Origin: Aurantiacibacter luteus
GTDB lineage: Bacteria > Pseudomonadota > Alphaproteobacteria > Sphingomonadales > Sphingomonadaceae
DNA length: 64,000 bases
Assembly: GCF_001010945.1 (NCBI RefSeq)
Contig: NZ_LBHB01000002.1
Coordinates: 186,001-250,000 of the forward strand
Direction of reading: 5' to 3'
Shown here: in pieces, positions 5,385-62,843 of the stretch
Layout: the number at the start of each line of letters is the position of its first letter
How positions within the stretch are numbered: the stretch's first letter is position 1
Position numbers and translations under genes: made by a program
The notes under the pieces: generated by a model
Told to the model about the DNA's origin: nothing
What the model saw: only the letters and a program-made list of their open reading frames with translations
The model's database searches: none

Positions 5385-5430
5385 GGCAACGAGCGCCCGC
5401 CGATCACGACGGGCCAGCTATGTGCGCTGA

Positions 5431-5607: not shown

Positions 5608-5708
5608 GGTGGGATGCTCCCGTTCGTGGTGGACCGGGAAGTTTATGTGTGCGCAAAAGCGACGATGCTCAAAGGGTATTCCGCGCCTTTCTGAGGGCGC
5701 TCAGAAAG

Positions 5709-14426: not shown

Positions 14427-15317
<891 letters not shown>

Positions 15318-15439: not shown

Positions 15440-16498
15440 CTACGCAAAGACGATACCATCCATCAACTTGCGCGCGGTCCTCAACAGGGCCGCGCTGACG
15501 ACCTCTCCCGCTGCGTCCACCTTGAGCACGCAGGTCGTCTCGCCGCTCGGATGTTCGATGCTCAGCGTCTTTTCCGCGCCTTCGGGCACATGGGCCACCG
15601 CGGCGGCGGTAGAGCCTTCGACCAGCGCCGCGGTCGCCGCGGTCACCGCGCCGAGCACGCCGATGGAGGCATGGGCGCGGTGGGGAATGAACACGCGCGT
15701 GGTCAGCGCGCCGCCATTCTTCGGCGGGGCGACGAGCGTCATCTTCGGCACCGACTTTTCCCCCACGTCGCCAAGGTTCATCAGCGGCCCGGCCTTCAGG
15801 CGGATGGCTTCGATCTTCGCGCGGATGGGGGCATAGGCCTCGCTCTCCAGCTCCTCGCGGCTCTCGTACCCGGTCGCGCCCACGGCATCGGCGGCAAAGA
15901 CCACGCAGGGCATGCCGTTGTCGATCAGCGTGCAGGGGATACCCTCGATCTCGTCGGAGGCATTGCCCGTCGGCAGCAGCGCGCCGCAGCTGGAGCCGGC
16001 GGTGTCGCGGAATTCAAGCGGCACGGGCGCGTGGCTGCCGGGCACGCCGTCGATCCTTGCATCACCCGCGTAGTTTACCACTCTGCCGGGCGTCTCCACC
16101 GTGGCGACGGCGATCTGGCCGGTGTTCTCCATGAAGATGGTTACATCGGTGCGCTCGCCCGAAGTCGTGACAAGCCCGCGCTCGATGGCGAAGGGGCCCA
16201 CGCCTGCAAGGATGTTGCCGCAGTTCTGCGCGTCGGAAACCAGCGCCTGGTCGACGAAGACCTGCAGGAAAAGGTAGTCGACATCGACCCCCTCGCGCGC
16301 CGACTTGCGCACCACCGCGACCTTGCTGGTCAGCGGATCGGCACCGCCCATGCCGTCGATCTGGCGCGGGTCGGGGCTGCCCATCGCGGCGAGCAGGAAT
16401 GCGTCACGCTCCTCCAAGCTGTCCGGCAGGTCGTCGGCGAGAAAGTAGCCGCCCTTCGACGTGCCGCCGCGCATCCACATGACAGGAGCGCTCTTCAA
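15440..16498 (-). CDS. ligU: 4-oxalomesaconate tautomerase (PrpF family)
   Basis: 352 residues from a TTG start that overlaps the ligK stop. The signature [19 protein letters not shown] opens the protein; [38 protein letters not shown] and [16 protein letters not shown] are PrpF-family blocks. LigU shifts the double bond of (4E)-oxalomesaconate by a 1,3-allylic isomerisation to give the LigJ substrate. An ATG at 16480 would start directly at MWMRGG, but PrpF proteins usually have several residues forming a strand before this motif (here SAPV), so the TTG is preferred. Placed between ligK and ligI, as in SYK-6. Confidence 0.88.
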
Positions 16499-17166
16499 AC
16501 CCACTTCAGCCCCATGTCGGTCAGCTTCTGGCGGAAGCCGTACATGTCTAGGCCCAGCTCGCCACTCGCCAGCCGCTTGCGCTTGTCCTCCTCGTTCGCC
16601 TCGCGCGCCTGCGCCTTTTCGAGCACGCTCGCCGCGTCCTCGCGCCGGACCACGCAGACCCCGTCGTCGTCCGCCACGATCACGTCGCCCGCGCGAATGA
16701 AGGCGCCCGCGCACACCACATCGACGTTCACGCTGCCGAGGCTCGCCTTGATCGTCCCTTGCGCGAAGACGCGCTTCGCCCAGACGGGGAAGTCCATCTC
16801 GGTCAGGTCGCGCACGTCGCGGATGCCCGCATCGATTATCAGCCCGCGCACCCCGCGTGCCTGCGCGCTGGTGGCGAGGAGGTCGCCGAAGTAGCCGTCC
16901 TCGCACGGGCTCGTCGGCGCGATCACCAGCACGTCGCCTTCTTGGCACTGCTCGATCGCGGCGTGGACCATGTAGTTGTCGCCCGGCGGCACGCTGATCG
17001 TGATCGCAGAGGCACCGATGCGCGCGCCGGGATAGATCGGGCGCATGTAGCTGGCGAGCAGGCCCGTGCGCCCCTGCGCCTCGTGCACGGTGGCGACCCC
17101 GCACTTGCCGAGCGTCTCGACCACCTGCGGGTCGGCCCGTTCGATGTTCTGGACGACGACGCCCAT
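16495..17166 (-). CDS. ligK: 4-carboxy-4-hydroxy-2-oxoadipate aldolase / oxaloacetate decarboxylase
   Basis: 223 residues, RraA/HMG-aldolase fold. It cleaves CHA to pyruvate and oxaloacetate, the last step of the pathway, and also decarboxylates oxaloacetate. [20 protein letters not shown] and [14 protein letters not shown] hold the conserved Arg and Asp that bind pyruvate and the divalent metal. The start has a GAGGAGA ribosome site eight bases upstream. It is the first gene of the minus-strand lig operon and diverges from the ligJABC-side operon across a 114-base promoter region. Confidence 0.93.
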
Positions 17167-17236: not shown

Positions 17237-17255
17237 TTGTAAGCACTACTTACAA
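17237..17255. promoter_or_regulatory. palindromic operator in the divergent lig promoter
   Basis: TTGTAAG-CACTA-CTTACAA is a perfect 7-bp inverted repeat with a 5-bp spacer, 25 bases before the plus-strand start at 17281 and 70 bases before the ligK start. A near-identical palindrome lies before ligM (31340-31358), and the flanks match too (AAC on the left, TT on the right). The size and symmetry fit a dimeric MarR-, GntR- or LysR-type regulator. Sharing by both lig promoters is the main evidence that it is functional. Confidence 0.75.
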
Positions 17256-17280
17256 TTGGTAGAAGCCTTCGTCGAGAGCG

Positions 17281-18102
17281 ATGGCTGTGTCAGATTCGAA
17301 AACTTCCGGCCCCCGGGTGGCACTGATCGGCTTCGGCGAGGCGGGCGAGAGCTTCGCGCGCGCTGCGGCATGGACAGGCCGTGCGCGCGGCTGGGACCTG
17401 CTCGAACGTCGCCGCGCGGCGATGGCGGATTGCGGCGTGCAGGCCGGATGCGACGCCGCCTACGCGCTCGCCGGGGCCGATGCCGCGCTCAGCCTTGTAA
17501 CCGCCGACCAGGCACTGGCCGCTGCGCGCGACTACGCGGCCTTGGTCGCGCCGGGCGCGCTGTGGCTGGACATGAACTCCGTCGCCCCCGCCACCAAGCG
17601 CACTGCCGCCGGGGCGGTGAATGCGGCGGGCGCGCGCTATGTCGATGTCGCGGTCATGGCCCCGGTCGAACAGCGGCTCGGCGTGCCGCTGCTGGTTTCC
17701 GGCCCGGATGCCGAGGAGGGGGCCGCGTTACTCCAGTCGATCGGCTTCACCAAAGTCCGCGTCGTCGGCGACGCCGTCGGCCGGGCGAGCGCGATCAAGC
17801 TGTGCCGCTCGGTCATGGTGAAAGGTCTCGAAGCCCTCTCCGCCGAATGCGCCGCCGCCGCCGAGGCCGAGGGCGTGCTGGACGAGGTCATGGCCTCGCT
17901 CGACGCCAGCGAGAAACCCGCGCCATGGATGGCGCGGATCGCCTACAATCGTGAGCGCATGGCCACCCACGGAACCAGAAGGGCCGCCGAAATGGACGAG
18001 GCCTGCGCCATGCTTGAAAGCCTCGGCGTGGAACCCGTCATGAGCCGGGGCACTGTCCAATTACAGCGCGCCGCCGCCAGCAAGGAACCTGCATGTCTCT
18101 GA
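17281..18102 (+). CDS. NAD(P)-dependent dehydrogenase of the 6PGDH/3-HIBADH type with DUF1932
   Basis: 273 residues. The N-terminal Rossmann motif VALIGFGEAGESFARAAA is followed by a WLDMNSVAPATKR segment typical of beta-hydroxyacid dehydrogenases, an IKLCRSVMVKGLEALSAEC helix with the catalytic Lys position (GRASAIKLCRS), and a C-terminal DUF1932 helical domain. It would oxidise or reduce a hydroxy/keto acid. It is first in the ligJ-ligA-ligB-ligC operon and overlaps ligJ by ten bases, so it probably acts on a pathway intermediate or side product; the actual reaction is unknown. Confidence 0.8.
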   Translation: MAVSDSKTSGPRVALIGFGEAGESFARAAAWTGRARGWDLLERRRAAMADCGVQAGCDAAYALAGADAALSLVTADQALAAARDYAALVAPGALWLDMNSVAPATKRTAAGAVNAAGARYVDVAVMAPVEQRLGVPLLVSGPDAEEGAALLQSIGFTKVRVVGDAVGRASAIKLCRSVMVKGLEALSAECAAAAEAEGVLDEVMASLDASEKPAPWMARIAYNRERMATHGTRRAAEMDEACAMLESLGVEPVMSRGTVQLQRAAASKEPACL

Positions 18103-19118
18103 TCATCGACTGCCACGGCCACTACACGGTGCTCCCCAAGGGGCACGATGCCTGGCGCGAGGAGCAGAAGGCGGCCTTTAAGGCAGGCACCCAGCCGCCG
18201 CCCTACCCCGACATCTCCGACGACGAGATCCGCCAGACGATCGAGGACAACCAGCTGAAGCTGGTGCAGGAACGCGGCGCCGACTTCACCATCTTTTCCC
18301 CCCGCGCCAGCGCCATGGCCCCGCACGTGGGCGACCAGGCGGTGGCAAGCGAATGGGCGCGGCGGTGCAACGACCTCATCTACCGCGTCACCCAGCTCTT
18401 CCCCGACACCTTCATCGGCGGCTGCATGCTGCCGCAGAGCCCGAAGGCGGACCTCAGCGAAAGCGTCAAAGAACTGCGCCGATGCGTCGAGGAGCTAGAT
18501 TTCGTCGTCTGCAACCTCAACCCCGATCCGGGCGGCGGGCATTTCGAGCATCCGCCGCTGACCGACGAATACTGGTTCCCTATCTACGAGGCGATGTGCG
18601 AACTGCAGGTGCCGGCGATGATCCACGTGTCGGGCAGCTGCAACCCGGCCATGCACGCGACGGGCGGATACTACCTCGCGGCGGATACGGTCGCCTTCAT
18701 GCAGCTCTTGGAGGGCGACCTTTTCAGCCGCTTCCCGGACCTCAAACTCATCATCCCCCACGGCGGCGGGGCGGTGCCCTACCACTGGGGCCGCTACCGG
18801 GGGCTCGCCGACATGCTCAAGCAGCCGGACATCGAGCAGCACCTGATGAACAACGTGTTCTTCGACACCTGCGTCTATCATCAGCCCGGCATCGACCTGC
18901 TCGCCGACGTCATCGCCAACAAGAACATCCTGTTCGGCAGCGAGATGGTGGGCGCGGTGCGCGGCATCGATCCGCAGACCGGCCATTATTTCGACGACAC
19001 CAAACGCTACGTCGACGCGCTCGATATCTCGGACGAGGAGCGGCACATGATCTTCGAGGGCAATGCCCGCCGCGTCTATCCGCGCCTCGACGCCATCCTG
19101 AAGGCGCGCGGGCTGTGA
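18093..19118 (+). CDS. ligJ: 4-oxalomesaconate hydratase
   Basis: 341 residues, amidohydrolase superfamily. It hydrates the LigU product to 4-carboxy-4-hydroxy-2-oxoadipate. The N-terminal DCHGHYTV supplies two metal ligands; MIHVSGSCNP, IIPHGGGAVPYHWGR and ILFGSEMVGAVRGIDPQTG are LigJ-specific blocks, with Glu of GSEM in the zinc-site/catalytic area. It overlaps the preceding gene by ten bases and the following DUF2218 gene by a GTGA, so translation is coupled. Confidence 0.93.
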   Translation: MSLIIDCHGHYTVLPKGHDAWREEQKAAFKAGTQPPPYPDISDDEIRQTIEDNQLKLVQERGADFTIFSPRASAMAPHVGDQAVASEWARRCNDLIYRVTQLFPDTFIGGCMLPQSPKADLSESVKELRRCVEELDFVVCNLNPDPGGGHFEHPPLTDEYWFPIYEAMCELQVPAMIHVSGSCNPAMHATGGYYLAADTVAFMQLLEGDLFSRFPDLKLIIPHGGGAVPYHWGRYRGLADMLKQPDIEQHLMNNVFFDTCVYHQPGIDLLADVIANKNILFGSEMVGAVRGIDPQTGHYFDDTKRYVDALDISDEERHMIFEGNARRVYPRLDAILKARGL

Positions 19119-19423
19119 CCGACACGCCCGTCATCGCCCACGGCCTCGCACGGTGCGAGAAGCCGGAGAAGTACATCCAGCAACTCGTCAAGCACTGGGG
19201 TCACAAGATGGCCACCGCCTACGACGAGGGAGATGGCATGGGCACCTTTCCTTTTTCCGACACGACAAGCGCGGTGATGACCGCCCGCCCGGAAGGTATC
19301 GCCATCACCCTCACCACCGCGGATGCAGAGAGCAATGTCCACATGCGCGGCGTGATCGAGCGCCACATCGACCGCTTCGCCTTTCGCGAAGCCCCGCTGA
19401 CATACGAATGGAGCGAACAATGA
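19115..19423 (+). CDS. DUF2218 protein inside the lig operon
   Basis: 102 residues from a GTG that overlaps the ligJ stop. The pattern RCEKPEKYIQQLVKHWGHKM, then F-S-D-T-T and a VIERHIDRFAFRE ending matches DUF2218, a small alpha/beta family often next to siderophore or metal genes. Its stop overlaps the ligA start (ATGA). It sits directly before the iron-dependent LigAB dioxygenase, so a role in iron supply or protection of that enzyme is a reasonable guess but unproven. Confidence 0.8.
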   Translation: MTDTPVIAHGLARCEKPEKYIQQLVKHWGHKMATAYDEGDGMGTFPFSDTTSAVMTARPEGIAITLTTADAESNVHMRGVIERHIDRFAFREAPLTYEWSEQ

Positions 19424-19869
19424 CCGAGCCGAAGAAGGAGCGGATCGACATCCACGCCTACCTGGCGGAGATGGAGGACATCCCCGGCACCCGCGTGTTC
19501 ACTGCGCAACGTGCGCGCAAGGGATACCACCTCAACCAGTTCGCCATGAGCCTGATGAAGGCCGAGAACCGCGAACGCTTCCTCGCCGACGAGGACGCCT
19601 ACATGGCCGACTGGAAGCTGACCGACGCAGCGAAGAAGGCGATCAGGGCGCGCGACTACAACGGCATGATCGACGAGGGCGGCAACATCTACTTCCTCGC
19701 CAAGCTGTTCAGCACCGACAGGAAGAGCTTTCAGTTCGCCGCCGGGTCGATGACCGGCATGACGCAGGAAGAATATGCCGAGATGATGCTGAAGGGCGGC
19801 CGCTCGCCCGAAGGTCAGCGCTCGCACCGCGAAAACGAGGCGGCTCGCTCCGCCAAGGAAGGGAACTGA
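19420..19869 (+). CDS. ligA: protocatechuate 4,5-dioxygenase, alpha subunit
   Basis: 149 residues; the SYK-6 subunit is ~139. The helical LigA fold is recognised from IPGTRVFTAQRARKGYHLNQ, FAMSLMKAENRERFLADE and the late GGNIYFLAKLFSTDRKSFQF block. The alpha subunit covers the active site of the beta subunit and has no iron of its own. It overlaps DUF2218 by four bases and is separated from ligB by three bases, ensuring equal synthesis of both subunits. Confidence 0.94.
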   Translation: MTEPKKERIDIHAYLAEMEDIPGTRVFTAQRARKGYHLNQFAMSLMKAENRERFLADEDAYMADWKLTDAAKKAIRARDYNGMIDEGGNIYFLAKLFSTDRKSFQFAAGSMTGMTQEEYAEMMLKGGRSPEGQRSHRENEAARSAKEGN

Positions 19870-20784
<915 letters not shown>

Positions 20785-20788
20785 GCAT

Positions 20789-20884
20789 CTCCCCTCCCGC
20801 CTGCGGGAGGGGCCGGGGGTGGGCCCAAGCAGGTGCCACCCTATGACAAACCCACCCCTAGCCCCTCCCGCAAGCGGGAGGGGG
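20789..20884. repeat. composite hairpin repeat within the lig operon (related copy at 56838)
   Basis: Two hairpins, CCCCTCCCGC-CT-GCGGGAGGGG (20791-20812) and CCCCTCCCGC-AA-GCGGGAGGGG (20862-20883), are followed and preceded respectively by GGGGGTGGG and CCCACCCC, so the two half-units face each other. The same half-units occur in the opposite arrangement at 56838-56924. Located between ligB and ligC, it may attenuate or stabilise the operon transcript. Confidence 0.8.
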
Positions 20885-20901
20885 ACTGACTGGAGCACAC
20901 A

Positions 20902-21864
20902 ATGAAGATCGCACTCGCCGGTGGCGGCGCATTCGGAGAAAAGCACCTCGACGGGCTGAAGAACATCGACGGGGTGGAAGTCACCGCGCTCGTCGGGCGG
21001 CAGCAGGAGCCGACGCAGGCCATGGCCGACAAGTACGGCATCGGCTTTGCCACCACCGACTACGAAGCGATGCTGGAGCGCGACGATGTCGACGCCGTGA
21101 TCCTGTGCACGCCCACGCAGATGCACGCCGACCAGGCGATCAAGGCGATGGATGCGGGCAAGCACGTCGAGGTGGAAATCCCGCTCGCCGACAGCCTCGC
21201 CGATGCCGAGGCGGTGCTGGCCAAGAGCCAAGAGACCGGCCTCGTCTGCATGGCCGGGCACACGCGCCGCTTCAATCCCAGCCACCAGTGGGTGAAGCAG
21301 CAGATCGACGCCGGGAACCTCAATATCCTCGCGATGGACGTGGAGACCTATTTCTTCCGCCGCGAGAACAAGAACGCCAAGGGCGAGCCGCGTTCATGGA
21401 CCGACCACCTGCTCTGGCACCACAGCGCGCACACCATCGACATCTTCCAGTACATGACCGGCGCCAAGGTGGTGAAGGCAAACATCCTGCAGGGGCCGAA
21501 GCACCCGCAGCTGGGCATCGCCATGGACCAGTCGATCCAGATGAAAACCGACAAGGGCCAGATCCTGACCCTGTCGCTCAGCTTCAACAACGAAGGGCCG
21601 TTCGGCACCTTCTTCCGCTACATCGGCGACACCGGCACCTATCTCGCGCGGTACGACGACCTCTTCAACGGCAAGGACGAGCCCATCGACCTGTCGGGCA
21701 TGGACGTACCCTCGACCAACGGCATCGAGCTGCAGGACCGCGAATTCATCGCCGCCATCCGAGAAGGGCGCGAGCCGAACAGCTCGGTCGCCGACACCAT
21801 CGAATGCTATCGCACCATCGGCGCGCTGGCGGCGAGCCTGGAAGATCAGGACGGCTGGTCCTGA
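20902..21864 (+). CDS. ligC: 4-carboxy-2-hydroxymuconate-6-semialdehyde dehydrogenase
   Basis: 320 residues, Gfo/Idh/MocA fold. It oxidises the hemiacetal form of CHMS to 2-pyrone-4,6-dicarboxylate with NADP+. The Rossmann motif ALAGGGAFGEKHLDGLK opens the protein; CTPTQMHADQAIKAMDAGKH, VEIPLADSLADA (EIP in place of the usual EKP), GHTRRFNPSHQW and LLWHHSAHTIDIFQYMTG are typical LigC blocks. It is separated from ligB by 117 bases holding the hairpin repeat and overlaps the next gene by one base. Confidence 0.94.
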   Translation: MKIALAGGGAFGEKHLDGLKNIDGVEVTALVGRQQEPTQAMADKYGIGFATTDYEAMLERDDVDAVILCTPTQMHADQAIKAMDAGKHVEVEIPLADSLADAEAVLAKSQETGLVCMAGHTRRFNPSHQWVKQQIDAGNLNILAMDVETYFFRRENKNAKGEPRSWTDHLLWHHSAHTIDIFQYMTGAKVVKANILQGPKHPQLGIAMDQSIQMKTDKGQILTLSLSFNNEGPFGTFFRYIGDTGTYLARYDDLFNGKDEPIDLSGMDVPSTNGIELQDREFIAAIREGREPNSSVADTIECYRTIGALAASLEDQDGWS

Positions 21865-22859
21865 TGGCTATCGGCAAGCGGACGATCGCCGGGCGCGCGC
21901 TGCACCCGGTGGGGCTCGGCTGCATGAACCTGTCGTGGGCCTACGCCGCCCCGCCCCCGCGCGAGGAGGCACTGCGGCTGCTCAACAGTGCGCTGGATCT
22001 CGGCTACGACCACTTCGACACCGCCAACATCTACGGCCTCGGCAAGAACGAGGAGCTGCTGGCGGAGGTGCTGCGCTATCGCCGCGGCGAGGTATTCCTC
22101 GCCAGCAAGTGCGGCATCGTGGTCGAGGGGCCGGATCGCGGCGTGAACTGCCGGCCAGAGGCCATCGCCGCCAATCTCGATGCCAGCCTGCAGCGGCTCG
22201 GCGTGGATCACCTCGACCTCTATTACATGCACCGCTTCGATCCCAAGGTGCCCATCGCCGACAGCGTGGGGGCGATGGCGCGGGCGATCGAGGCGGGCAA
22301 GATCGGGGCATACGGCGTTTCCGAATGGAGCGCGGCGCACATCCGCGAGGCGTACGCCGTCCATCCGCTCGGCGCGGTGCAGACCGAATATTCGCTGTGG
22401 ACCCGCAACGTGGAACTGGGCGTGCTCGAGACCACGCGCGAGCTCGGCGTGGCGCTGGTCGCCTTCAGCAGCACCGGGCGCGGGGCCTTCGGCGGCGTGC
22501 TGCGCGATCCTTCGACGCTCGAGGAAAGCGATCTCAGGCGCAAGATGCCGCGCTTCGATGCGGAAAACTGGCCGAAGAACCTCGCCGTGATCGAGCGGTT
22601 CGAAGCGCTGGCGGCGGAGGCTGGCGTGACCCCCGCCCAGCTCGCCAATCGCTGGGTGCTTGAACAGGGCGAGCACCTGCACGTCATCCCCGGCACCACC
22701 AGCATGGCGCACATGCAGGACAACTTCGCCGCCGCCACACTCGACATTCCGGCCGAGGTAATTGCCCGCGCGGGCGATTTGGTGAACCACGCGAACGTCC
22801 ACGGCCACCGCTACCACGACGCCATCAGGCCGACGATCGACACCGAGGAGCTCGCCTGA
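21864..22859 (+). CDS. aldo/keto reductase at the end of the lig operon
   Basis: 331 residues, TIM-barrel AKR. GLGCMNLSWAY, the catalytic FDTANIYG (Asp and Tyr), ASKCG (Lys) and LYYMHRFD (His) make the full tetrad; the C-terminal VIPGTTSMAHMQDNF binds NADP(H). It reduces a carbonyl compound; the closest general group is the AKR family that includes pyridoxal and aromatic-aldehyde reductases. Its ATG overlaps the ligC stop (TGATG), so it is part of the operon. It may act on an aldehyde or semialdehyde in the pathway, but no specific substrate is known. Confidence 0.85.
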   Translation: MAIGKRTIAGRALHPVGLGCMNLSWAYAAPPPREEALRLLNSALDLGYDHFDTANIYGLGKNEELLAEVLRYRRGEVFLASKCGIVVEGPDRGVNCRPEAIAANLDASLQRLGVDHLDLYYMHRFDPKVPIADSVGAMARAIEAGKIGAYGVSEWSAAHIREAYAVHPLGAVQTEYSLWTRNVELGVLETTRELGVALVAFSSTGRGAFGGVLRDPSTLEESDLRRKMPRFDAENWPKNLAVIERFEALAAEAGVTPAQLANRWVLEQGEHLHVIPGTTSMAHMQDNFAAATLDIPAEVIARAGDLVNHANVHGHRYHDAIRPTIDTEELA

Positions 22860-22873
22860 AGCCGACGCGATAA

Positions 22874-22903
22874 GGGCTCCGGCAACTTTCGCCACCGGAG
22901 CCC
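22874..22903 (+). terminator. hairpin terminator of the lig operon
   Basis: GGGCTCCGG (22874-22882) pairs with CCGGAGCCC (22895-22903) around a 12-base loop, 15 bases after the aldo/keto reductase stop. No U run follows, so it may act with Rho or in both directions, since a convergent gene ends at 22941. Confidence 0.6.
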
Positions 22904-22940
22904 GTCGTGCCGGGCGTTGGGGCGCCCGGTTGTCCTGAGA

Positions 22941-23321
22941 TCAGCTGTTGTCGTTATTTCCGGCAGCCTGCGCCCGCGCGCCGAGCGCCAGCTGCACGCG
23001 CTGCGCCACGGCCGGGTCAGCCTGCATGGCCGTGCCGATGGCATTGTAGGTCTCGGCCTCGATCCCGGCCTCGGCCAGCACCTCGAGCGCCTTCGCCTGC
23101 CGCGCCTCTGCGGTCACGGTAGTATCCGCCGCAATCTCCGCCTGGGCCGCGCGCATCGCGATGGCCGCCTCGACGAAGCTGGCGATCTGCTCGTCGGTAA
23201 AGGCCGTAGACGTCGCCTCGGCGGTGACGGCATCCTCGGTCTGAGCCGGCAGTTCCTGCGCCATGGCGGCACCGGCCAGCAGCAGCGAACCCGCCGCGCC
23301 CAGCACTGCAAAAGTCTTCAT
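22941..23321 (-). CDS. exported DUF4168-like protein
   Basis: 126 residues with a clear signal peptide (MKTFAVLGAAGSLLLAGAAM, cleavage after AMA). The mature part has the DUF4168 pattern: FTDEQIASFVEAAIAMRAAQ, a helical middle, then EAETYNAIGTAMQADPAVAQ and an Asn-rich end. The periplasmic function is unknown. It converges on the lig operon and is not obviously related to it. Confidence 0.8.
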   Translation of the reverse strand: MKTFAVLGAAGSLLLAGAAMAQELPAQTEDAVTAEATSTAFTDEQIASFVEAAIAMRAAQAEIAADTTVTAEARQAKALEVLAEAGIEAETYNAIGTAMQADPAVAQRVQLALGARAQAAGNNDNS

Positions 23322-23548
23322 TCGTCCAACTCCGTATCCAATCGTGGACCCCCGTGGCCGCGCTGATGCGGGCCTGCGGGCGGACGGACAATCCGCCATG
23401 AGACGAACCGCACCCTTTGCAGGGACGAGATTGCGGCACCCGTGCCCCAGCCGCGACGGGCGGAGAGGAAAGAATACCGGTCCCTCCGACTGCTCGGTTT
23501 ATTGGATGACACGAAACCGCGACTCTGCACGGCTGCGATGTCGGGAGT

Positions 23549-23806
23549 CTATTTTTCGCGTCGCCCGTCACCATGCCACAGGCGTTTGATCAGCCCCGCC
23601 ATTAGCCAAGAAGCGGCCACAAAGGCAGCCAGCAGCCCGATCGCAAGAAGCGTGCCCCCGGCTATGCCGAAAAGCTTGCTGTCATCGACCAGCAACAGGA
23701 GCATCGCGAGTCCGAGAAAAAGCGAAGCACAGTTGGCCAACAATTTCCCGTCGCGTTGAAGCAATTGCCGACGACCGGTCCGCAGGTTCGGCCGCGTCAG
23801 CCTCAC
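23549..23806 (-). CDS. small two-helix membrane protein
   Basis: 85 residues from a GTG that overlaps the stop of the dienelactone-hydrolase-like gene (GTGA). A basic N-terminus is followed by two hydrophobic helices (LANCASLFLGLAMLLLLVDD and FGIAGGTLLAIGLLAAFVAA) and a basic tail RLWHGDGRREK. No family recognised. It is translationally coupled to the upstream hydrolase gene. Confidence 0.65.
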   Translation of the reverse strand: MRLTRPNLRTGRRQLLQRDGKLLANCASLFLGLAMLLLLVDDSKLFGIAGGTLLAIGLLAAFVAASWLMAGLIKRLWHGDGRREK

Positions 23807-24663
23807 AGTTTCTCGCGGTAGAGATCGAGCATGGCCGCCCGGGCGCGCTCGGCCTCCGCCTGGTTGTAGACCGGGCTGTCGAGCACGGTCCAGCCGTGGT
23901 CGCCAGCGTAGACTTCCACCTCGATGTCCGCCTGTGCTGCCTCGGCGGCGGCGCGCAGGGCGACCTTGTCGTTGGGGGCGGAGGCATCGTCGTTTTGCGC
24001 GATGGCGATCAGAGCGCCTGCATCGGCGGCCATGCGCGAGAGCTGGTTTACCGGGGCCAGCGGATTTTCCCCCACCAGCCCGCCGCCGTGGAAGCTGGCC
24101 GCAGCCTTGATGCGGCCCGGCACAGCGGCGGCCGACAGGATCGTCCAGCTGCCCGTCATGCAGTAGCCCTGATTGCCGATGCCCTTGCCCGTATCAACCG
24201 CGGCCTGCGCGTCGAGCCAGCCGACAACGCTGCGCGCCGTCGCCATCACCGCCTCGGGCGTGTTGCGTTCCCGCCAAGGCTGGGTCGCCTGCATGCCGCC
24301 GTTTCGCCAGGCGTCGAAGTCGGCGAACTGCTGCCCGGCGACCGAACGATAGTAGGGATTGGCGACGAGGACGGCATAGCCTTCAGCCGCCAGCCGCCGT
24401 CCCATCTCGACCTTGGCGGGGCGCAGGCCGGCGATGTCGGGCCACAGGATCACGCCCGGGTGCCGCCCGCTCGCCGGGTGGATGAACACGCCGTCCATCG
24501 TCCCCCCGTCGGCGGCGAAGCTGACGTTCGACTGCGTCAGCCCGCCCGCGGTGCCCGAGCCCTCCATCGAAGTGCAGGCGGCGAGCGCGCCCATTCCCGC
24601 CAGCGCGCCGAAGCTGCGGCGGCTCAACGCGGGCATGGTGCTGAGGTGGTCGGTTTCGCACAT
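23803..24663 (-). CDS. dienelactone-hydrolase-family lipoprotein with a Tat signal
   Basis: 286 residues from the ATG with a GAGAGGA ribosome site. LSRRSFGALAGMGALAACTS is a twin-arginine signal ending in a lipobox Cys. The alpha/beta-hydrolase domain has the Cys nucleophile in GNQGYCMTGSW and the His in AGDHGWTVLD, as in dienelactone hydrolases. The start of the mature protein (GVFIHPASGRHPGVILWPDI) is also typical of the family. Tat export means it acts in the periplasm on an unknown ester or lactone. Confidence 0.85.
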   Translation of the reverse strand: MCETDHLSTMPALSRRSFGALAGMGALAACTSMEGSGTAGGLTQSNVSFAADGGTMDGVFIHPASGRHPGVILWPDIAGLRPAKVEMGRRLAAEGYAVLVANPYYRSVAGQQFADFDAWRNGGMQATQPWRERNTPEAVMATARSVVGWLDAQAAVDTGKGIGNQGYCMTGSWTILSAAAVPGRIKAAASFHGGGLVGENPLAPVNQLSRMAADAGALIAIAQNDDASAPNDKVALRAAAEAAQADIEVEVYAGDHGWTVLDSPVYNQAEAERARAAMLDLYREKL

Positions 24664-24747
24664 GGTCGTCGGTCCTCTCGTATTGTCTGGACCCAAGACT
24701 AGCAGGATCGGCGCGGCGCGAAAGTGGGCCTTGGCCCTATGCCGACC

Positions 24748-24888
24748 CTACCAACGGCGCGAGCGGCGACGGCCGAAGCGCATTCGGCGATCTTTAGCCC
24801 GGCGGCGCAACCATACAGCCATGCCCAATCCGACGACGATGACCGCGATCACTATAATCACATAGGCCAATTCGGTTCGCAGTGTCAT
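24748..24888 (-). CDS. small single-span membrane protein, 46 residues
   Basis: Starts MTLRTELAYVIIVIAVIVVG, continues LGMAVWLRRR and ends in a very basic tail (KDRRMRFGRRRSRRW). GGAG sits seven bases before the ATG. One transmembrane helix with a cytoplasmic Arg-rich tail. No family recognised. It stands between the hydrolase gene and an AT-rich spacer without other genes. Confidence 0.6.
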   Translation of the reverse strand: MTLRTELAYVIIVIAVIVVGLGMAVWLRRRAKDRRMRFGRRRSRRW

Positions 24889-25075
24889 CGTTATCTCCGG
24901 CGGCCGCGGACGCGCTTCATGTTGCAATGCAGCACGATGACAGATTTTTGCATAATTCCAAGCAAAACACGCAAATTACATTATTTTTCAAACGACCTGC
25001 CCATATCGTCCGGGGCCGGCACGGACCGGAGCATACGCTTTTGCCCATGAAGAGCCTAGAGCGAGGAGCACCGAC

Positions 25076-26356
25076 CTAGTCCGCCAGCGCGCGCCCGCGC
25101 GCCATGGCCCAGTCGACCTCCTCCAGCAGCGCCGCGTTCTCCAGCGGGTTGCCGTCCAGCGCGATCATGTCCGCCGAGTAACCGGGCGCGAGGCGGCCGA
25201 TCTCGTTTTCCATGTGCAGCACCCGCGCGGCGACCGTGGTGGCGCTCGCCACCGCCTCGCGGTCGCTCATGCCCGCCTGCACCAGCAGCGCGAACTCGCC
25301 GGCGTTGCGGCCATGCTCGAACACGCCTGCATCGGTGCCGAAGGCGATGGTGATGCCGCGCCGGTGCGCCTCGCGCACCTGCTGGCCGACGATCTCGGCC
25401 ACCTGGCGGATCTTGGCCTCGACGGTAGGGGTGTAGACCCCGGTGCCCAGGCGCTCGATCACGCCCTGGAAGGCCATCAGCGTGGGGACGAGCACGGTGT
25501 CGTGCGCCTGCATGGCGTCGAGCGCGCCGCGATCGAGGTAGGTGCCGTGCTCGATGGTGCGGATGCCGGCATTGGCCGCCGCCTCGATCCCGCGCGCGCC
25601 GTGGGCGTGGGCGGCGACCTCGAGGCCGAGCGCGCTGGCCGCCTCGACGATGGCTTCCATCTCGGGCCGGGTAAAGTGCGCCTCGAGCCCTCGGCCCTGC
25701 TGGCTGAGCACGCCGCCGGTCGCGGTGATCTTGATCCAGTCCGACCCGTTCTGCGCCGCCTGCCGCACACGCGCGGCGCACTCGGCGGGGCCGGTACAGG
25801 TGAATCCGGTGTCGAGCGCGTCGTTCACCTCGGGCCGGAAGCCGGAGACGTCGCCGTGCCCGCCGATGATGGCGAGCGGCGGGCCGGAGGCGAGGATGCG
25901 CGGTCCGGGAAAGGCGGCCTCTGCCACGGCGCGGCGCACGGCGAACATCGACTGCGGATAGCTGCCCACGTCGCGCACCGTGGTGAAGCCCGCCGCCAGC
26001 GTGGTGCGCGCATTGACCGCGCCGGTCAGCGTCGCCCACTCGTCGCTCTCCACCGCCGCGTCGCGGAAGTCGCCGCCGGGGTTGCCGTCGAGATGGACGT
26101 GGAGGTCAATGAGGCCGGGCATGACGGTCTTGCCCGACAGGTCGATAAGCTCGGCCCCGGCGGGCACCGGCTGCCACCCGTCTTCGATGGCGACGATACG
26201 GCCGTTCTCCACGGTGATCGTCGCCGGTCCGTCGAACCCGGAATCCACGTCGCGGATTACGTGCCCGGCATGGATGACCTGACGGACCTCCTGCGCCAGC
26301 GAGGGAACGGCGAGCACCAGCGTGGACACGGCGGCGAGAATGGCGGCGATTTTCAT
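25076..26356 (-). CDS. exported amidohydrolase-family protein (imidazolonepropionase/prolidase-like)
   Basis: 426 residues with a signal peptide (MKIAAILAAVSTLVLAVPSL, cleavage after LAQ). PGLIDLHVHLDG supplies the first two metal-binding His, WIKITATGG the carboxylated Lys, AAHAHG and EHGTY the next His, and AFGTDAGVF the catalytic Asp; the C-terminal LAPGYSADMIALDGNPLEN is the usual end of this group. Such enzymes hydrolyse amide or dipeptide bonds (Xaa-Pro or similar) in the periplasm. It is not evidently part of the aromatic pathway despite its location. Confidence 0.87.
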   Translation of the reverse strand: MKIAAILAAVSTLVLAVPSLAQEVRQVIHAGHVIRDVDSGFDGPATITVENGRIVAIEDGWQPVPAGAELIDLSGKTVMPGLIDLHVHLDGNPGGDFRDAAVESDEWATLTGAVNARTTLAAGFTTVRDVGSYPQSMFAVRRAVAEAAFPGPRILASGPPLAIIGGHGDVSGFRPEVNDALDTGFTCTGPAECAARVRQAAQNGSDWIKITATGGVLSQQGRGLEAHFTRPEMEAIVEAASALGLEVAAHAHGARGIEAAANAGIRTIEHGTYLDRGALDAMQAHDTVLVPTLMAFQGVIERLGTGVYTPTVEAKIRQVAEIVGQQVREAHRRGITIAFGTDAGVFEHGRNAGEFALLVQAGMSDREAVASATTVAARVLHMENEIGRLAPGYSADMIALDGNPLENAALLEEVDWAMARGRALAD

Positions 26357-26474
26357 GGCTTTCGGGCTCCCCTTGTTCGTTGCGCCCTGTGTGTCGCCGA
26401 ATGCCGCCACGCGCAAATGCAAAAAGGGCGGCAGGATCGCTCCCGCCGCCCCCTTGTTCGTATCTGCCGGGAAA

Positions 26475-27584
26475 TCAGCCCCAGACTTCCTCGGCCACCT
26501 CCACGCACAGGCGGATCTTGGCGGCCTGCTGCTGGGTGGTGATGTCGTTGCCGTGGACGGTGCTGGCAAAGCCGCACTGCGGGCTCAGCGCCAGCTGGTC
26601 GAGGTCGGCATACTGCGCCGCCTGGTCGATGCGGCGCTTGATGTCGTCCTTCGTCTCCATCTCGCCGAGCTTGGTCGATACCAGGCCGAGCACCACGGTC
26701 TTGCCCTTGGGCAGGTGCGCCAGCGGCGAGAAGTCGCCCGAGCGGGCATCGTCGTATTCGAGGAAGAAGGCGTCGATGTCGCACTCGTTGAACATCACCT
26801 CTGCCACCGGCTCGTAACCGCCCTCGGCCGCCCAGCTCGACCGGAAGTTGCCGCGGCACAGGTGCATGGCCTTGACCATGTCGGCCGGCGCATCGCGGAA
26901 GCTGGCGTTGATGAGGCGGGCATATTCATGCGTGACCGAATCGGGGTCCATCCCGCGCTTCTGCGCGTCCTCGCGGTGGCCGGTGTCGCACAGGTAGGCG
27001 AGGTTGGTGTCGTCGATCTGGATATACCGGCAGCCCGCGTCGGCGAGGTCGGCGATCTCGGCGCGGTAGGCCGCGGCGACATCGTCGTAGAAGCCCTGCA
27101 TGTCGGGATAGGCATCCTCGGGAATGCCCTCGCGCCCGGCGCGAAAGTGCAGCATGGTGGGGCTGGGAATGGAGACCTTGGGCGTCTGGGTGACGACCTT
27201 CTTCAGCGCCTCGAAATCGGCGCGCTGGATCGGCTTCTCGTGCGCGACCTTGCCGGTGATGATCATCTTGGGCGGCGCGAATTCCACGTCGACGCCCTTG
27301 TCGTTCTTGAACGCCTTCTTGATGCCGCCTGTCTCCTCGACGCCCGAGAGCTGGAGCAGGAAGTCGGTGTGGAAGAACTTGCGGCGATATTCGCCGTCGG
27401 TGATGGCTTTCAGGCCCAGGCTCTCCTCCCAGCGGGCGAGCTCGGCGATGGCCTCGTCCTCGATCTGGCGCAGGGCGGCGGCATCGATGTCGCCCGCGGC
27501 GAACCGCTCGCGCGCCTCGATCACGGAGCGCGGACGCAGGAAGGAGCCGACGTGGTCGGCGCGCGAAGGTAGCTTGAATGTCAT
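26475..27584 (-). CDS. core-type cobalamin-independent methionine synthase homologue
   Basis: 369 residues equal to the catalytic C-terminal barrel of MetE, without the N-terminal half. The zinc ligands are visible: His241 and Cys243 (MHLCRGN), Glu276 (FFLEYDD) and Cys337 (LSPQCGF), the H-C-E-C set of MetE. RADHVGSFLRP is the standard opening of core MetE proteins. Full MetE moves the methyl group of 5-methyl-tetrahydropteroyl-triglutamate to homocysteine; core forms studied elsewhere use a methyl-corrinoid donor. It lies between the lig operon and ligM, whose product releases 5-methyl-tetrahydrofolate, so this protein may take up or recycle that methyl group. Confidence 0.85.
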   Translation of the reverse strand: MTFKLPSRADHVGSFLRPRSVIEARERFAAGDIDAAALRQIEDEAIAELARWEESLGLKAITDGEYRRKFFHTDFLLQLSGVEETGGIKKAFKNDKGVDVEFAPPKMIITGKVAHEKPIQRADFEALKKVVTQTPKVSIPSPTMLHFRAGREGIPEDAYPDMQGFYDDVAAAYRAEIADLADAGCRYIQIDDTNLAYLCDTGHREDAQKRGMDPDSVTHEYARLINASFRDAPADMVKAMHLCRGNFRSSWAAEGGYEPVAEVMFNECDIDAFFLEYDDARSGDFSPLAHLPKGKTVVLGLVSTKLGEMETKDDIKRRIDQAAQYADLDQLALSPQCGFASTVHGNDITTQQQAAKIRLCVEVAEEVWG

Positions 27585-27785
27585 GGCATGGGTCCAATCG
27601 GCTAGGTTAGCGGCTGCTGTTCCAGCGTCACTGCGCGGGCTCGCGCTCGACTGACGATGCGCGCCTAAGCACCGATTCCGGACATTCGCAACACACATCT
27701 GGCGCGCGAATTGAGTCGCGCACGGGCGGACCGAATGTTATCGCCTAAAACAATTGCCAATTCATCGGGACAGGAGCACCAGGCC

Positions 27786-29303
27786 ATGAACGAACAGACC
27801 GCCATCGATCGCACCCAGCGTGACTACTCCGCCGCCGTGAAGAAGGCGCTGGAACGCAAGCCCCAGCTCTACATCGACGGCGCTTGGGTGGATTCCTCGG
27901 GCGGCGAGACCATCGAGGTGGAGGACCCCTCCTCGGGCAAGATCGTGTCGCGTTTCGTGGAGGCCACCGACAAGGACATCGACCGCGCCGTCGCCGCCGC
28001 GCGCACTGCCTTCGACGATGGCCGGTGGCGCAACATGCCCCCGGTCATGCGCGAGAAGATCATGCACAAGCTCGCCGACCTCATCGAGGAGCACGCGGAT
28101 GAGCTGGCCGAACTCGAAGCCATCGACGTGGGCAAGCCCAAGGGCATGGCCGCCGCGGTCGACGTGCCGGGCGCGGCCAGCCACATCCGCTTCTGCGCCA
28201 GCTGGGCGAGCAAGATCACCGGCGAGACCGTCGCCCCCTACACCATGCCCGGCGGCATGCTGTTCGCCTACACGCTGAAGGAGCCCGTCGGCGTCTGCGC
28301 GCAGATCGTGCCGTGGAACTTCCCCCTGCTGATGGCCTGTCTCAAGATCGGCCCGGCACTGGGCGCGGGTTGCACCACGATCCTGAAGCCCGCCGAGCAG
28401 ACCAGCCTCACCGCGCTGCGCCTGGCGGACCTCGTGCACGAGGCGGGCGTGCCTGCGGGCGTGTTCAACCTCGTCACCGGCTACGGCCACACCGGCGGCG
28501 ACCGGCTGGTGAAGCACCCCGACGTCGACAAGGTGGCCTTCACCGGCTCGACCGAGATCGGCAAGCTCATCAACAAGAACGCCACCGACACGCTCAAGCA
28601 CGTGACGCTGGAACTGGGCGGCAAGAGCCCGGTCGTGGTCATGCCCGACGTCGACGTCGCTTCCACCGGACCGGGCGTGGCGGGCGCGATCTTCTTCAAC
28701 TCCGGGCAGGTCTGCGTCGCGGGCAGCCGCCTTTACGCGCACAAGAGCGTGTTCGACGACGTGATCGAGGGGATGCACCAGACAAAGGACTTCTGGGCCC
28801 CGCGCCCCAGCCTCGACCCCGACGCGCACATGGGCCCGCTCGTCAGCAAGGAACAGCACGAGCGGGTGATGAACTACATCGAAGCCGGCAAGCGTGACGG
28901 CGCCGCCGTGCTGATGGGCGGCGATGCGCCCTCCAGCGATGGCGGCTACTACGTCAACCCGACCATCCTCACCGACGTAAACCCGCAGATGAGCGTGGTG
29001 CGCGAGGAGATCTTCGGCCCCGTCGTGGTCGCCCAGCGCTTCGAGGACCTCGACGACGTCGTGCGCGATGCCAACGACACGCAATACGGCCTCGCTGCGG
29101 GCGTGTGGACCAAGAACCTCGCCGCCGCCCACCAGATCGCCGCGAAGCTGCAGGCGGGCACGGTGTGGGTCAACACCCACGCCATGATCGACGTCGCCAT
29201 CCCCTTCGGCGGCTACAAGGAAAGCGGCGTGGGCCGCGAACAGGGGCGCGAGGGGATCGAGGCCTACCTGCAGACCAAGTCGGTCGTGATGAAGATGGAT
29301 TGA
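27786..29303 (+). CDS. NAD(P)-dependent aldehyde dehydrogenase
   Basis: 505 residues. VPWNFPLLMACLKIGPALGA (cofactor and Asn site), FTGSTEIGKLI, the general base in VTLELGGKSPVV, the nucleophilic Cys in NSGQVCVAGSR and EEIFGPVV are all present. It resembles the phenylacetaldehyde/betaine-aldehyde dehydrogenase group. AGGAG lies before the ATG. Position between core metE and ligM and next to a LigI/LigJ-like amidohydrolase suggests an aromatic aldehyde (for example vanillin, protocatechualdehyde) as substrate, but the vanillin dehydrogenase name LigV cannot be given from sequence alone. Confidence 0.9.
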   Translation: MNEQTAIDRTQRDYSAAVKKALERKPQLYIDGAWVDSSGGETIEVEDPSSGKIVSRFVEATDKDIDRAVAAARTAFDDGRWRNMPPVMREKIMHKLADLIEEHADELAELEAIDVGKPKGMAAAVDVPGAASHIRFCASWASKITGETVAPYTMPGGMLFAYTLKEPVGVCAQIVPWNFPLLMACLKIGPALGAGCTTILKPAEQTSLTALRLADLVHEAGVPAGVFNLVTGYGHTGGDRLVKHPDVDKVAFTGSTEIGKLINKNATDTLKHVTLELGGKSPVVVMPDVDVASTGPGVAGAIFFNSGQVCVAGSRLYAHKSVFDDVIEGMHQTKDFWAPRPSLDPDAHMGPLVSKEQHERVMNYIEAGKRDGAAVLMGGDAPSSDGGYYVNPTILTDVNPQMSVVREEIFGPVVVAQRFEDLDDVVRDANDTQYGLAAGVWTKNLAAAHQIAAKLQAGTVWVNTHAMIDVAIPFGGYKESGVGREQGREGIEAYLQTKSVVMKMD

Positions 29304-30233
29304 TTGGATGCGGGGGAGGAGCTCGGTCTTCTTCCCCCCTTCCCTTCGGGAGACACGCACATTCCCATAGACCTGAACAAAGTCCGCGCCATCGACGTGC
29401 ACGTGCACGCCGAGGTGTCCTGCCACGACCCGGAAGACCCGGTGATGGGCAAGTTCTTCGATGCCGCCAGCGCCTATTTCAAGGCGCCGCGCGAGCGTCC
29501 GAAGATGCCCGAGATCATCGAGCTCTACCGCGAGACGAACATCGCCTTCTGCCTGTTCACCGTCGATGCCGAGAGCGGCATGGGGGCCAAGCGCGTCTCC
29601 AACTACGAAGTCGCCGAGCTGGCGAACAGGAACGACGACATCTGCATCCCCTTCGCCAGCATCGATCCGCACAAGGGGAAGTACGGCGCACGCGAGGCGC
29701 TGGACCTCATCGAGAACCACGGGGTCAGGGGCTTCAAGTTTCACGGCATCGCGCAGAACGCCCACCCGGCGGACCCGGTCGGCTACCCGATCTACGAGGT
29801 CATCAACGAATACAAGCTGCCCGCCATCTTCCACACCGGCCATTCGGGCATGGGCACGGGGATGCGCGGCGGCGGGGGTCTGAGGCTCAAGTACGGCGAG
29901 CCCATGCTGGTGGACGATGTCGCGGTGGACTTTCCCGACATGAAGATCATCCTCGCCCACCCCAGCTGGCCGTGGGTGGACCAGAGCCTGTCGATGGCGC
30001 TGCACAAGGACAACGTCTTCATCGACCTGTCGGGCTGGTCGCCCAAGTATTTCCCGGAAGCGGTCATTCGCTACGCAAACACCCAGCTCAAGCACAAGGT
30101 GCTGTTCGGCAGCGACTTCCCCCTGATCCATCCCGACAAGTGGATCGCCGCCGCGAAGGAGGTCGGCTTCCGCGACGAGGTGATGCCCGGGATCATGAAG
30201 GACAACGCCGCGCGGGTGCTGGGGCTGGCCTAG
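29304..30233 (+). CDS. amidohydrolase-family protein (LigI/LigJ/ACMSD-like), start uncertain
   Basis: Up to 309 residues. IDVHVHAEVS (two metal His), GFKFHGIAQNAHP, IFHTGHSG, ILAHPSWPW and FGSDFPLIHPDKW (final Asp) define the superfamily; homologues include decarboxylases and beta-ketoacyl-CoA or ring-fission hydrolases of aromatic pathways. It directly follows the aldehyde dehydrogenase. The start is doubtful: a TTG at 29304 has no ribosome site, whereas GGGAG (29348-29352) is eight bases before an ATT at 29361, which gives the N-terminus expected from the homologues (IPIDLNKVRAIDVHVH). The ATT would be a rare start codon. Confidence 0.82.
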   Translation: MDAGEELGLLPPFPSGDTHIPIDLNKVRAIDVHVHAEVSCHDPEDPVMGKFFDAASAYFKAPRERPKMPEIIELYRETNIAFCLFTVDAESGMGAKRVSNYEVAELANRNDDICIPFASIDPHKGKYGAREALDLIENHGVRGFKFHGIAQNAHPADPVGYPIYEVINEYKLPAIFHTGHSGMGTGMRGGGGLRLKYGEPMLVDDVAVDFPDMKIILAHPSWPWVDQSLSMALHKDNVFIDLSGWSPKYFPEAVIRYANTQLKHKVLFGSDFPLIHPDKWIAAAKEVGFRDEVMPGIMKDNAARVLGLA

Positions 30234-30259
30234 GTCCTGCTCAAAGGAGCGAGGGGCTT

Positions 30260-30601
30260 TTGACGTTCGAAGACACGACGTCATCGTCACCGGCGCATCC
30301 ACCGGCATCGGCGGCGACACCGTGTGTACGAACACCGCGCTCGCCATCCAGCACCTCTCCCAAAACCTACCGCTGCATGCTCCGTCCCCAGCGCGTCCAC
30401 AGGAGCGCGCGCAATAGCGTCGCGACACGGAGCCTGCGGCGCAAGGGCTGGGCCGTCAGCTTCGGCGACCCGGCCAAGCACGAGCAGAGCATGGTCTGCC
30501 TGTGGGACAATGCCGCCACCATGCACCTCGGACCCAACGACTACGACGGGTTCCGGCGCGAGATGTACCGGACCACCACGGCGGGCGGGGTGCCGGTTTG
30601 A
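30260..30601 (+). pseudogene. remnant of a TauD/TfdA-family dioxygenase gene
   Basis: Two pieces in different frames resemble separate parts of a 2-oxoglutarate-dependent dioxygenase. Around 30311-30360 one frame gives GGDTVCTNTALAIQHLS, as in the GGDT-x-x-x-N block of TfdA proteins. Around 30490-30598 another frame gives MVCLWDNAATMHLGPNDY and REMYRTTTAGG, the usual C-terminal W-D-N-x-x-x-x-H ... RTT-x-AG block. The middle, including most of the core, is missing and there are stops between the parts. The gene is therefore dead. Confidence 0.65.
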
Positions 30602-30686
30602 TGCAGCGGTCAATCCCGGGCATTTGCAAGCTGTCTGCCGGATGTGGCATCATGGATCGGCGGGACCTCCCGCGGAGGCACCTGCA

Positions 30687-30878
30687 ATGACGACACCCAC
30701 CGAAGCCAAGCTGAAGCATGAACTGGGCAATGCCCAACAGAAGGCACAGGCGCTCGAGGGCATGGTCAAGCGCGCCGCCGACCAGCTCGATGCCCTGGCC
30801 GATGCCGACTGCGAGGCCTCCGCCAAGGACAAGGCGCATCAGCAGGCCGAACGAATGCGCAAGATCATCGAGAGCTGA
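30687..30878 (+). CDS. small helical hypothetical protein, 63 residues
   Basis: Starts MTTPTEAKLKHELGNAQQKA; nearly all of the protein is predicted helix with heptad-like spacing (QALEGMVKRAADQLDALAD; HQQAERMRKIIES). GGAGG lies nine bases before the ATG. No family recognised. A short coiled-coil or helical hairpin protein is likely. Confidence 0.6.
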   Translation: MTTPTEAKLKHELGNAQQKAQALEGMVKRAADQLDALADADCEASAKDKAHQQAERMRKIIES

Positions 30879-30884
30879 CCGCCC

Positions 30885-31286
30885 TCACCCGGCGAAGAAA
30901 TTCAGTTCCAGCAGGACATTGTTGGGGTCTGCGGTAAAGATCTGCCGCAGGTTTATCGCCGCCACCAGGTTCTCCTGATAGTCGGCCCCCGCGGCATCCA
31001 GCCGTGCCTTCATCTCTTCGTAGCCGGTCATCTTCAGCGCCACGTGGTGCAGGGCGCCGGTCAGCGCGCCGGGCTGGACCTCGCGGTCGTAGGTACGCGC
31101 GCAGTCGGCGGAGTTGATGTGGACGATGGCCCGTCCGTCAGCGTCGTGCATCCACTGCGCCGTCTGCGGCGTCAGCGGCGGCGGGCCGTCGCGCCGCGCC
31201 AGACCGAGTATGGCCGCGTACCATTGCGCCGTTTCCTCCAGCCGGTCGGTGATGATGTTCACGTGATCGAGAGCTTCGACTTTCAT
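30885..31286 (-). CDS. VOC (glyoxalase/extradiol dioxygenase fold) protein
   Basis: 133 residues. The paired beta-alpha-beta-beta-beta units start ALDHVNIITDRLEETAQWYA and LHHVALKMTGYEEMKARLDA; the metal-ligand positions His (DHVN), His (HHVA) and Glu (LLELNFF) are filled, so a metal-dependent enzyme is possible. The substrate is unknown. It diverges from ligM across a 116-base region carrying the palindromic operator, so it may be under the same control. Confidence 0.85.
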   Translation of the reverse strand: MKVEALDHVNIITDRLEETAQWYAAILGLARRDGPPPLTPQTAQWMHDADGRAIVHINSADCARTYDREVQPGALTGALHHVALKMTGYEEMKARLDAAGADYQENLVAAINLRQIFTADPNNVLLELNFFAG

Positions 31287-31339
31287 GCGTCACCTCCTGC
31301 TGCGCCACACGGTATGGGCCTTGCCTCCCTAGCCGAAAC

Positions 31340-31358
31340 TTGTATGCGTTACATACAA
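31340..31358. promoter_or_regulatory. palindromic operator before ligM
   Basis: TTGTATG-CGTTA-CATACAA is a perfect 7-bp inverted repeat with a 5-bp spacer, 44 bases before the ligM start and 53 before the divergent VOC gene. It matches the palindrome at 17237-17255 in size, spacer length, flanks (AAC and TT) and all but one pair of arm bases. A common regulator for ligM and the ring-cleavage operons is the simplest reading; in SYK-6 ligM is repressed by the MarR-type DesR, which binds inverted repeats. Confidence 0.75.
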
Positions 31359-31372
31359 TTTCGCATACGTGA

Positions 31373-32815
<1,443 letters not shown>

Positions 32816-62809: not shown

Positions 62810-62843
62810 AAAGAGCGAGGTGTAATTTTACACCTCGCTCTTT
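62810..62843. terminator. bidirectional intrinsic terminator
   Basis: AAAGAGCGAGGTGTAA (62810-62825) pairs perfectly with TTACACCTCGCTCTTT (62828-62843); an A run precedes and a T run follows. It serves DUF2171 on the plus strand and the GIY-YIG gene on the minus strand, seven bases from the latter's stop. Confidence 0.93.

Follow-up and report, generated by a model that had tools for sequence, protein, structure and literature searches.

RESULTS

Two palindromes at the ligK and ligM promoters

The window analysed here, a stretch of 64,000 nt of Aurantiacibacter luteus DNA (GCF_001010945.1, contig NZ_LBHB01000002.1, positions 186,001–250,000; genome of 2.89 Mb, labelled G000), contains genes for O-demethylation of vanillate/3-O-methylgallate and for protocatechuate ring cleavage, together with two near-identical palindromes, site A and site B, that appear to place both steps under one regulator. 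Other G and L numbers below denote genomes and loci, respectively. The sites and the genes that flank them are:

17237..17255, no strand assigned, site A, candidate DesR-type operator (arms TTGTAAG and CTTACAA, spacer CACTA), exact match, in the divergent gap between ligK and the SARO_RS14280-like gene
31340..31358, no strand assigned, site B, candidate DesR-type operator (arms TTGTATG and CATACAA, spacer CGTTA), exact match, 44 bp before the ligM ATG
16495..17166, minus, ligK, 4-carboxy-4-hydroxy-2-oxoadipate aldolase (TIGR02798, 375.1 bits, cut-off 304.5)
17281..18102, plus, SARO_RS14280-like dehydrogenase gene heading the rightward operon (NCBIfam match below cut-off, synteny; named from the gene order in passages of PMC12710314)
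30885..31286, minus, VOC-type gene, divergent from ligM and adjoining it in many loci with the box (NCBIfam match below cut-off)
31403..32815, plus, ligM, vanillate/3-O-methylgallate O-demethylase (NF047885, 845.7 bits, cut-off 580)

Site A lies in a divergent, gene-free gap of 114 bp between ligK and the SARO_RS14280-like gene, which heads the predicted ligJABC operon, and site B lies between the VOC-type gene and ligM, in both cases as the original prediction had placed them. When the window was searched with TTGTAWG-N5-CWTACAA and compared with 100 shuffles, TTGTAAGCACTACTTACAA at 17237–17255 and TTGTATGCGTTACATACAA at 31340–31358 were the sole matches with fewer than 3 mismatches, both being exact and flanked by AAC and TT as predicted. 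Two further matches require 3 mismatches, in keeping with the earlier statement that the window holds no third copy; the resulting 4 matches at ≤3 mismatches compare with a shuffle mean of 0.78, and none of the 100 shuffles reached 4. Among the perfect palindromes of the window (arms ≥7 bp, spacers 0–12 bp, ≥5 A/T per arm), sites A and B are the only mutually similar pair.

Searching the whole genome with TTGTANG-N5-CNTACAA (hereafter the box), with the reversed pattern as control, gave 2 exact matches versus 0, and 3 matches versus 1 at ≤1 mismatch. The additional match, TTGTTAGTATAGCATACAA at C11:777860–777878, is outside the window, departs from the pattern at one position (TTGTTAG) and stands just upstream of a MarR gene; an autoregulated MarR, GntR or LysR gene was what the original prediction had proposed to look for. 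At ≤2 mismatches the count was 13 versus 19 in the control, so only the first three sites stand above noise, and the matches at 2 mismatches were rejected as further sites.

The third site precedes a DesR ortholog

The MarR gene (C11:777383–777835, minus strand) has its reading frame starting at a TTG located 24 nt downstream of the third site, an ATG 16 nt after the box being out of frame. Its product passes the Saro_0803 family model NF053777 (247 bits, cut-off 200), as does DesR of G144 (237.7 bits), and these two proteins are reciprocal best matches with 65% identity, the next best match having 33%. G144 is taken to be strain SYK-6, as it contains the operators IR-B and IR-M exactly, and IR-R in front of its MarR gene. 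According to passages of the SYK-6 study (PMC6888825), DesR represses desB, ligM and desR through IR-B GTTTGTGTCACATAC, IR-M GTTTGTGTAACATAC and IR-R GTATGCTACGCTTAC, and is released by vanillate or syringate; these operators and the sites of the A. luteus genome have a common GTNNG-N5-CNTAC layout.

At 38 of 40 desR ortholog loci (the exceptions being L264 and L285), the 250 bp in front of the gene hold a box with ≤2 mismatches, compared with 1 of 40 for the reversed control, and the DNA-binding core DRAT-M---NR is common to >95% of the 40 orthologs. Membership of the DesR type is therefore indicated by the family model, by reciprocal best match, by the box before the gene itself and by the box before ligM. 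Downstream of the MarR gene lie an aromatic acid/H+ symporter-type gene (TIGR00895, below cut-off) and then an S-(hydroxymethyl)glutathione dehydrogenase gene (TIGR02818, 595.7 bits, cut-off 543.95). At L143 and L146 an exact box is found between these last two genes, which suggests that formaldehyde handling is under the same control there.

Site B is conserved before ligM

Among the best 30 of 44 LigM places, a box with ≤2 mismatches was found within 300 bp before ligM at all 30 loci, its end 39–98 bp upstream of the start, whereas the reversed control was found at 3 of 30. Searches for DesR, LigM and PobA covered 80 of the 82 genomes of the junction census described below (G025 and G273, both with LigR, were left out), with ≥57% identity defining a close DesR ortholog and ≥67% a LigM match. 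Such a LigM occurs in 38 of the 80 genomes, all of which have a close DesR ortholog; G185 and G057 have DesR without such a LigM. By these comparisons site B is most probably a conserved DesR operator of a known kind, since the third site precedes the MarR gene, the MarR protein is the reciprocal best match of DesR and the layout matches that of the published operators.

Boxes were also seen at other genes of relatives. At L089, L092, L093, L124, L128 and L129 an exact box precedes a homolog of the metE-like methyltransferase gene of the window (26475–27584, minus; NF005085, above cut-off), and would in these relatives tie the handling of methyl groups to O-demethylation; before the metE-like/aldehyde dehydrogenase pair of the window only sites with 5 mismatches were found. 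Exact boxes at L109 and L150 stand before a LigB-like gene (40% identity), which may encode a gallate dioxygenase, and before a LigM-like gene (49%) that may encode a syringate demethylase.

Site A occurs where LigR is missing from the junction

In Novosphingobium aromaticivorans the gene for the LysR-type regulator LigR lies between ligK and SARO_RS14280-ligJA1B1C and its product activates both (passages of PMC12710314). No ligR is present between ligK and the SARO_RS14280-like gene in the window, the 114-bp gap being without any LysR gene, and no LigR ortholog was found in this genome, where the best match has 28% identity over 166 aa. In the 130 bp before ligK, the closest match to the LigR box, TT-N-GC-N6-TTAT, has 3 mismatches, no better than the reversed control.

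The region upstream of ligK was then compared at 83 of 91 LigK places in 298 family genomes, a census that includes the window and two earlier loci; the 8 places outside it are two of G270, two of G117, those of G034 and G281, and the second places of G138 and G273. Adjacent LigR was called by tblastn with real LigR sequences. A LysR signature expression had returned 0 LysR proteins in 80 named loci, yet translation showed LigR reading frames in 8 of 9 inspected, and the expression was dropped. At the 28 junctions without adjacent LigR, a DesR-type box with ≤1 mismatch was present in 24, while none of the 55 junctions with adjacent LigR had one even at ≤2 mismatches (Fisher p 4e-17 over the 83 junctions, with relatedness ignored); the reversed pattern never fell below 3 mismatches at any of them. 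The LigR box (≤1 mismatch, ≤130 bp upstream of ligK) showed the opposite distribution, being present at 51/55 junctions with LigR and 2/28 others (reversed, 3/55 and 1/28). In the 80 named ligK loci, all six with short divergent gaps (L005, L006, L007, L008, L015 and L074) have the box, L074 with 2 mismatches, and none of the other named loci has it at ≤2 mismatches. L006 and L008 appear to duplicate census genomes G066 and G275, and the genomes of L015 and L074 are outside the DesR search. Both sites are therefore conserved in relatives, a check that the original prediction had proposed, at 30/30 ligM loci and at 24/28 ligK junctions without adjacent LigR.

A close DesR ortholog is present in 24/24 genomes with the box at ligK, in 16/52 with LigR, and in 0/4 with neither (G045, G183, G278 and G217); none of these four has a LigM match at the threshold. 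LigR elsewhere in the genome was sought in 31 genomes at E≤1e-20. All four control genomes among them gave a match, 23 of the 24 boxed genomes gave none, and a 29% match was obtained in G278. In G045 and G183, which have no LigR, DesR or LigM match, the short gaps (L160 and L164, respectively) have another element in common, TTTGCTATA ... ATTGCAATA in L164 and TTTGCTATA ... AATGCAATA in L160, perhaps the target of another regulator. L164 also retains one intact half of the box, which we interpret as the remnant of an operator whose regulator has been lost.

Of the two, site A is the new part of the finding and goes with the absence of LigR at the junction. The original proposal of one shared site, in a wiring unlike that of SYK-6, is supported: the ligR gene is missing here and the search turned up no LigR box. 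Site B would correspond to the already known control of ligM by DesR.

Probable repeated exchange of the two regulators

A tree was built from 82 of 87 SARO_RS14280-like rows (L213, L219 and L229 had no SARO_RS14280 match and two were too short). On this tree the LigR state must have changed 10 times or more, and well-supported branches force at least 5 of the changes; this is a quick gene tree, in which transfer of the cluster is possible, and relatedness inflates simple counts. Both states occur within the genus of the window: G014 carries LigR at the junction and a box before ligM but none at ligK, and in G000, G103, G165 and G285 the ligK box is present and LigR is not adjacent. These patterns suggest that, upon loss of LigR, control of the ring-cleavage promoters passed to DesR, probably several times, in which case O-demethylation and ring cleavage would come to share one repressor.

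Gene order and promoter-like elements

The remaining features of the ring-cleavage cluster are:

14427..15311, minus, ligI-like hydrolase on the ligK side (NCBIfam match below cut-off; order as in ligKUI in passages of PMC12710314)
17237..17265, plus, weak promoter-like arrangement proposed for the rightward operon: TTGTAA (left arm of site A), 17 nt, TAGAAG
18093..19118, plus, ligJ-like gene (synteny with relatives; no NCBIfam match)
19423..19869, plus, stretch with ligA, protocatechuate 4,5-dioxygenase alpha subunit (TIGR02792, 204.1 bits, cut-off 108.6)
19873..20784, plus, ligB, protocatechuate 4,5-dioxygenase beta subunit (NF009903, 483.8 bits, cut-off 317)
20902..21864, plus, ligC-like dehydrogenase (NCBIfam match below cut-off; synteny)

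The arm TTGTAW followed by TA 17 nt on is seen at 23 of the 24 boxed junctions. Elsewhere in the window, integrase-like reading frames near the lig cluster (3796–7377, one at 6130–7377, minus; seen from translation only) may mark the edge of a genomic island, and a perfect palindrome with 10-bp arms and a 2-nt spacer between convergent reading frames (62816–62837) is possibly a terminator hairpin.

DISCUSSION

Our results point to the ortholog of SYK-6 DesR, a repressor of the MarR family, as the one regulator whose operators are sites A, B and C11:777860–777878, a reading to which we assign a probability of about 0.85, so that one DesR-related repressor probably controls both the O-demethylase and the ring-opening enzymes. 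On site A, a DesR dimer would cover the −35-like element of the predicted SARO_RS14280-like/ligJABC promoter, as implied by the position of the TTGTAW arm relative to the TA 17 nt on, and would lie beside the divergent ligK promoter. Dimers would also bind upstream of ligM and before the desR gene itself, ahead of the aromatic-acid transporter-like gene. On binding an aromatic acid, which in SYK-6 is vanillate or syringate, DesR would leave the DNA, and ligM, ligK and ligJABC would be turned on together; release would also open desR and the transporter-like gene, and thus perhaps increase uptake too.

Several observations weigh against control of both steps by DesR, and they are considered here together with the alternatives on which they bear. 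The exact pattern occurs at 72 places in the 298 family genomes versus 32 for the reversed control, approximately a twofold excess in a hand tally, and isolated exact matches elsewhere may therefore often be due to chance. It is nevertheless very improbable that the palindromes discussed here are chance or structural features with no regulatory role, as boxes are kept at three defined promoters in spite of variation in the gap sequence around them, and their presence tracks both DesR and the lack of adjacent LigR.

The census also contains cases that do not fit. G102 combines a box at ligK with a LigR match (44%) on a different contig, and L160, L164 and L192 are short-gap junctions with neither LigR nor a good box. 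In independent pairs from the tree the box follows the change of LigR state in about 4/5 and never in the opposite direction, giving a sign test p of 0.125, and related genomes are not independent. Site A could be bound by another MarR protein, or by some other regulator that recognises a similar half-site, in which case DesR would act at site B and the desR site only: the genome contains three other, weaker MarR-like matches (≤33% identity), and genus g45 (G045 and G183) suggests that this junction may be controlled in other ways. We regard this as improbable, given that a close DesR ortholog accompanies the box in every boxed genome and was not found in the three short-gap genomes without a good box, that the same layout stands before desR itself, and that the genome has only three sites at ≤1 mismatch, none of them before another regulator.

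The remaining difficulties concern the signal and the mode of action. Two pobA-type matches are present in G000 (C11:820508–821674 and C1:1246976–1248139; NF006091, above cut-off) and no pcaH match was found in this genome. The possibility that boxed genomes have no other source of protocatechuate was tested with pobA and not borne out, as 22/24 have a pobA match (those of G232 being partial). Since pobA is present, protocatechuate would also arise from 4-hydroxybenzoate, a route that a vanillate-only gate would block; pobA without pcaH thus argues against a strictly vanillate-only gate, and leaky repression, a broader ligand range or an extra regulator could resolve this. In SYK-6, growth with protocatechuate did not raise ligM or desB expression (passages of PMC6888825). 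Comparison of DesR residues between the 24 boxed genomes and the 16 others revealed three partial differences, none clearly pointing to a new ligand, and a scan of the site A gap with the sigma-70 consensus found no promoter. An alternative is that DesR binds site A but only tunes or activates transcription, another factor providing the main induction by protocatechuate; this would meet the need for vanillate-independent induction suggested by pobA without pcaH, and LigR, the usual regulator, is itself an activator (passages of PMC12710314). It is unlikely, however, as the overlap of the left arm with the −35-like TTGTAW at 23/24 junctions is a position typical of a repressor, and DesR is a repressor of all three of its SYK-6 targets.

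Control of both steps by DesR is similar to what is known of the SYK-6 DesR regulon (desB, ligM and desR), which also involves a MarR-family protein, the GTNNG-N5-CNTAC layout and operators at ligM and desR. A single switch has a precedent there, because DesR already couples ligM with a ring-cleavage gene, desB, encoding gallate dioxygenase (passages of PMC6888825). SYK-6 (G144) differs in that its ligK junctions have LigR and no DesR box (L226 and L293), whereas here the box is present and LigR was not found. With the LigR regulon of N. aromaticivorans and SYK-6 (passages of PMC12710314) the system shares the divergent targets ligKUI and SARO_RS14280-ligJABC; it differs in that the LysR gene and the TT-N-GC-N6-TTAT box were not found, a MarR-type palindrome being in their place. 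The full ligR arrangement is reported for 82 genomes, 77 of Sphingomonadaceae and 5 of Erythrobacteraceae, the Erythrobacteraceae total being absent from the passages of that source. Saro_0803 of N. aromaticivorans (NF053777; PMC10046596) belongs to the family whose cut-off is exceeded by both the DesR ortholog here and DesR of G144, but is a resveratrol-responsive repressor of nov1 with the inverted repeat GCAATA-N6-TATTGC (PMC10046596). In a survey of the literature that was not exhaustive (the DesX study is outside it), no description was found of DesR control of ligK/ligJABC, nor of LigR loss accompanied by a DesR box; what is new is that DesR control would extend to protocatechuate cleavage, where it would stand in for LigR.

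Taken as a whole, the comparisons slightly favour a scenario in which, at one divergent catabolic promoter, a dedicated LysR activator was repeatedly lost and operators of a MarR repressor already present, a sensor of the methoxylated acid upstream in the pathway, came to stand in its place. Local induction of ring cleavage would thereby have become feed-forward control of both steps. If so, ring cleavage would be opened ahead of the appearance of protocatechuate, or DesR in these organisms would also answer to protocatechuate or 4-hydroxybenzoate.

Published work presents LigR as coordinating the cleavage of the protocatechuate ring in lignin-degrading sphingomonads (passages of PMC12710314), and a set of relatives appears here to manage these operons by way of DesR, with no LigR involved. 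The exchange inside one genus provides matched strains for studying an activator-to-repressor swap at one promoter. For the engineering of aromatic funnelling, deletion of one repressor might deregulate O-demethylation and ring cleavage together.

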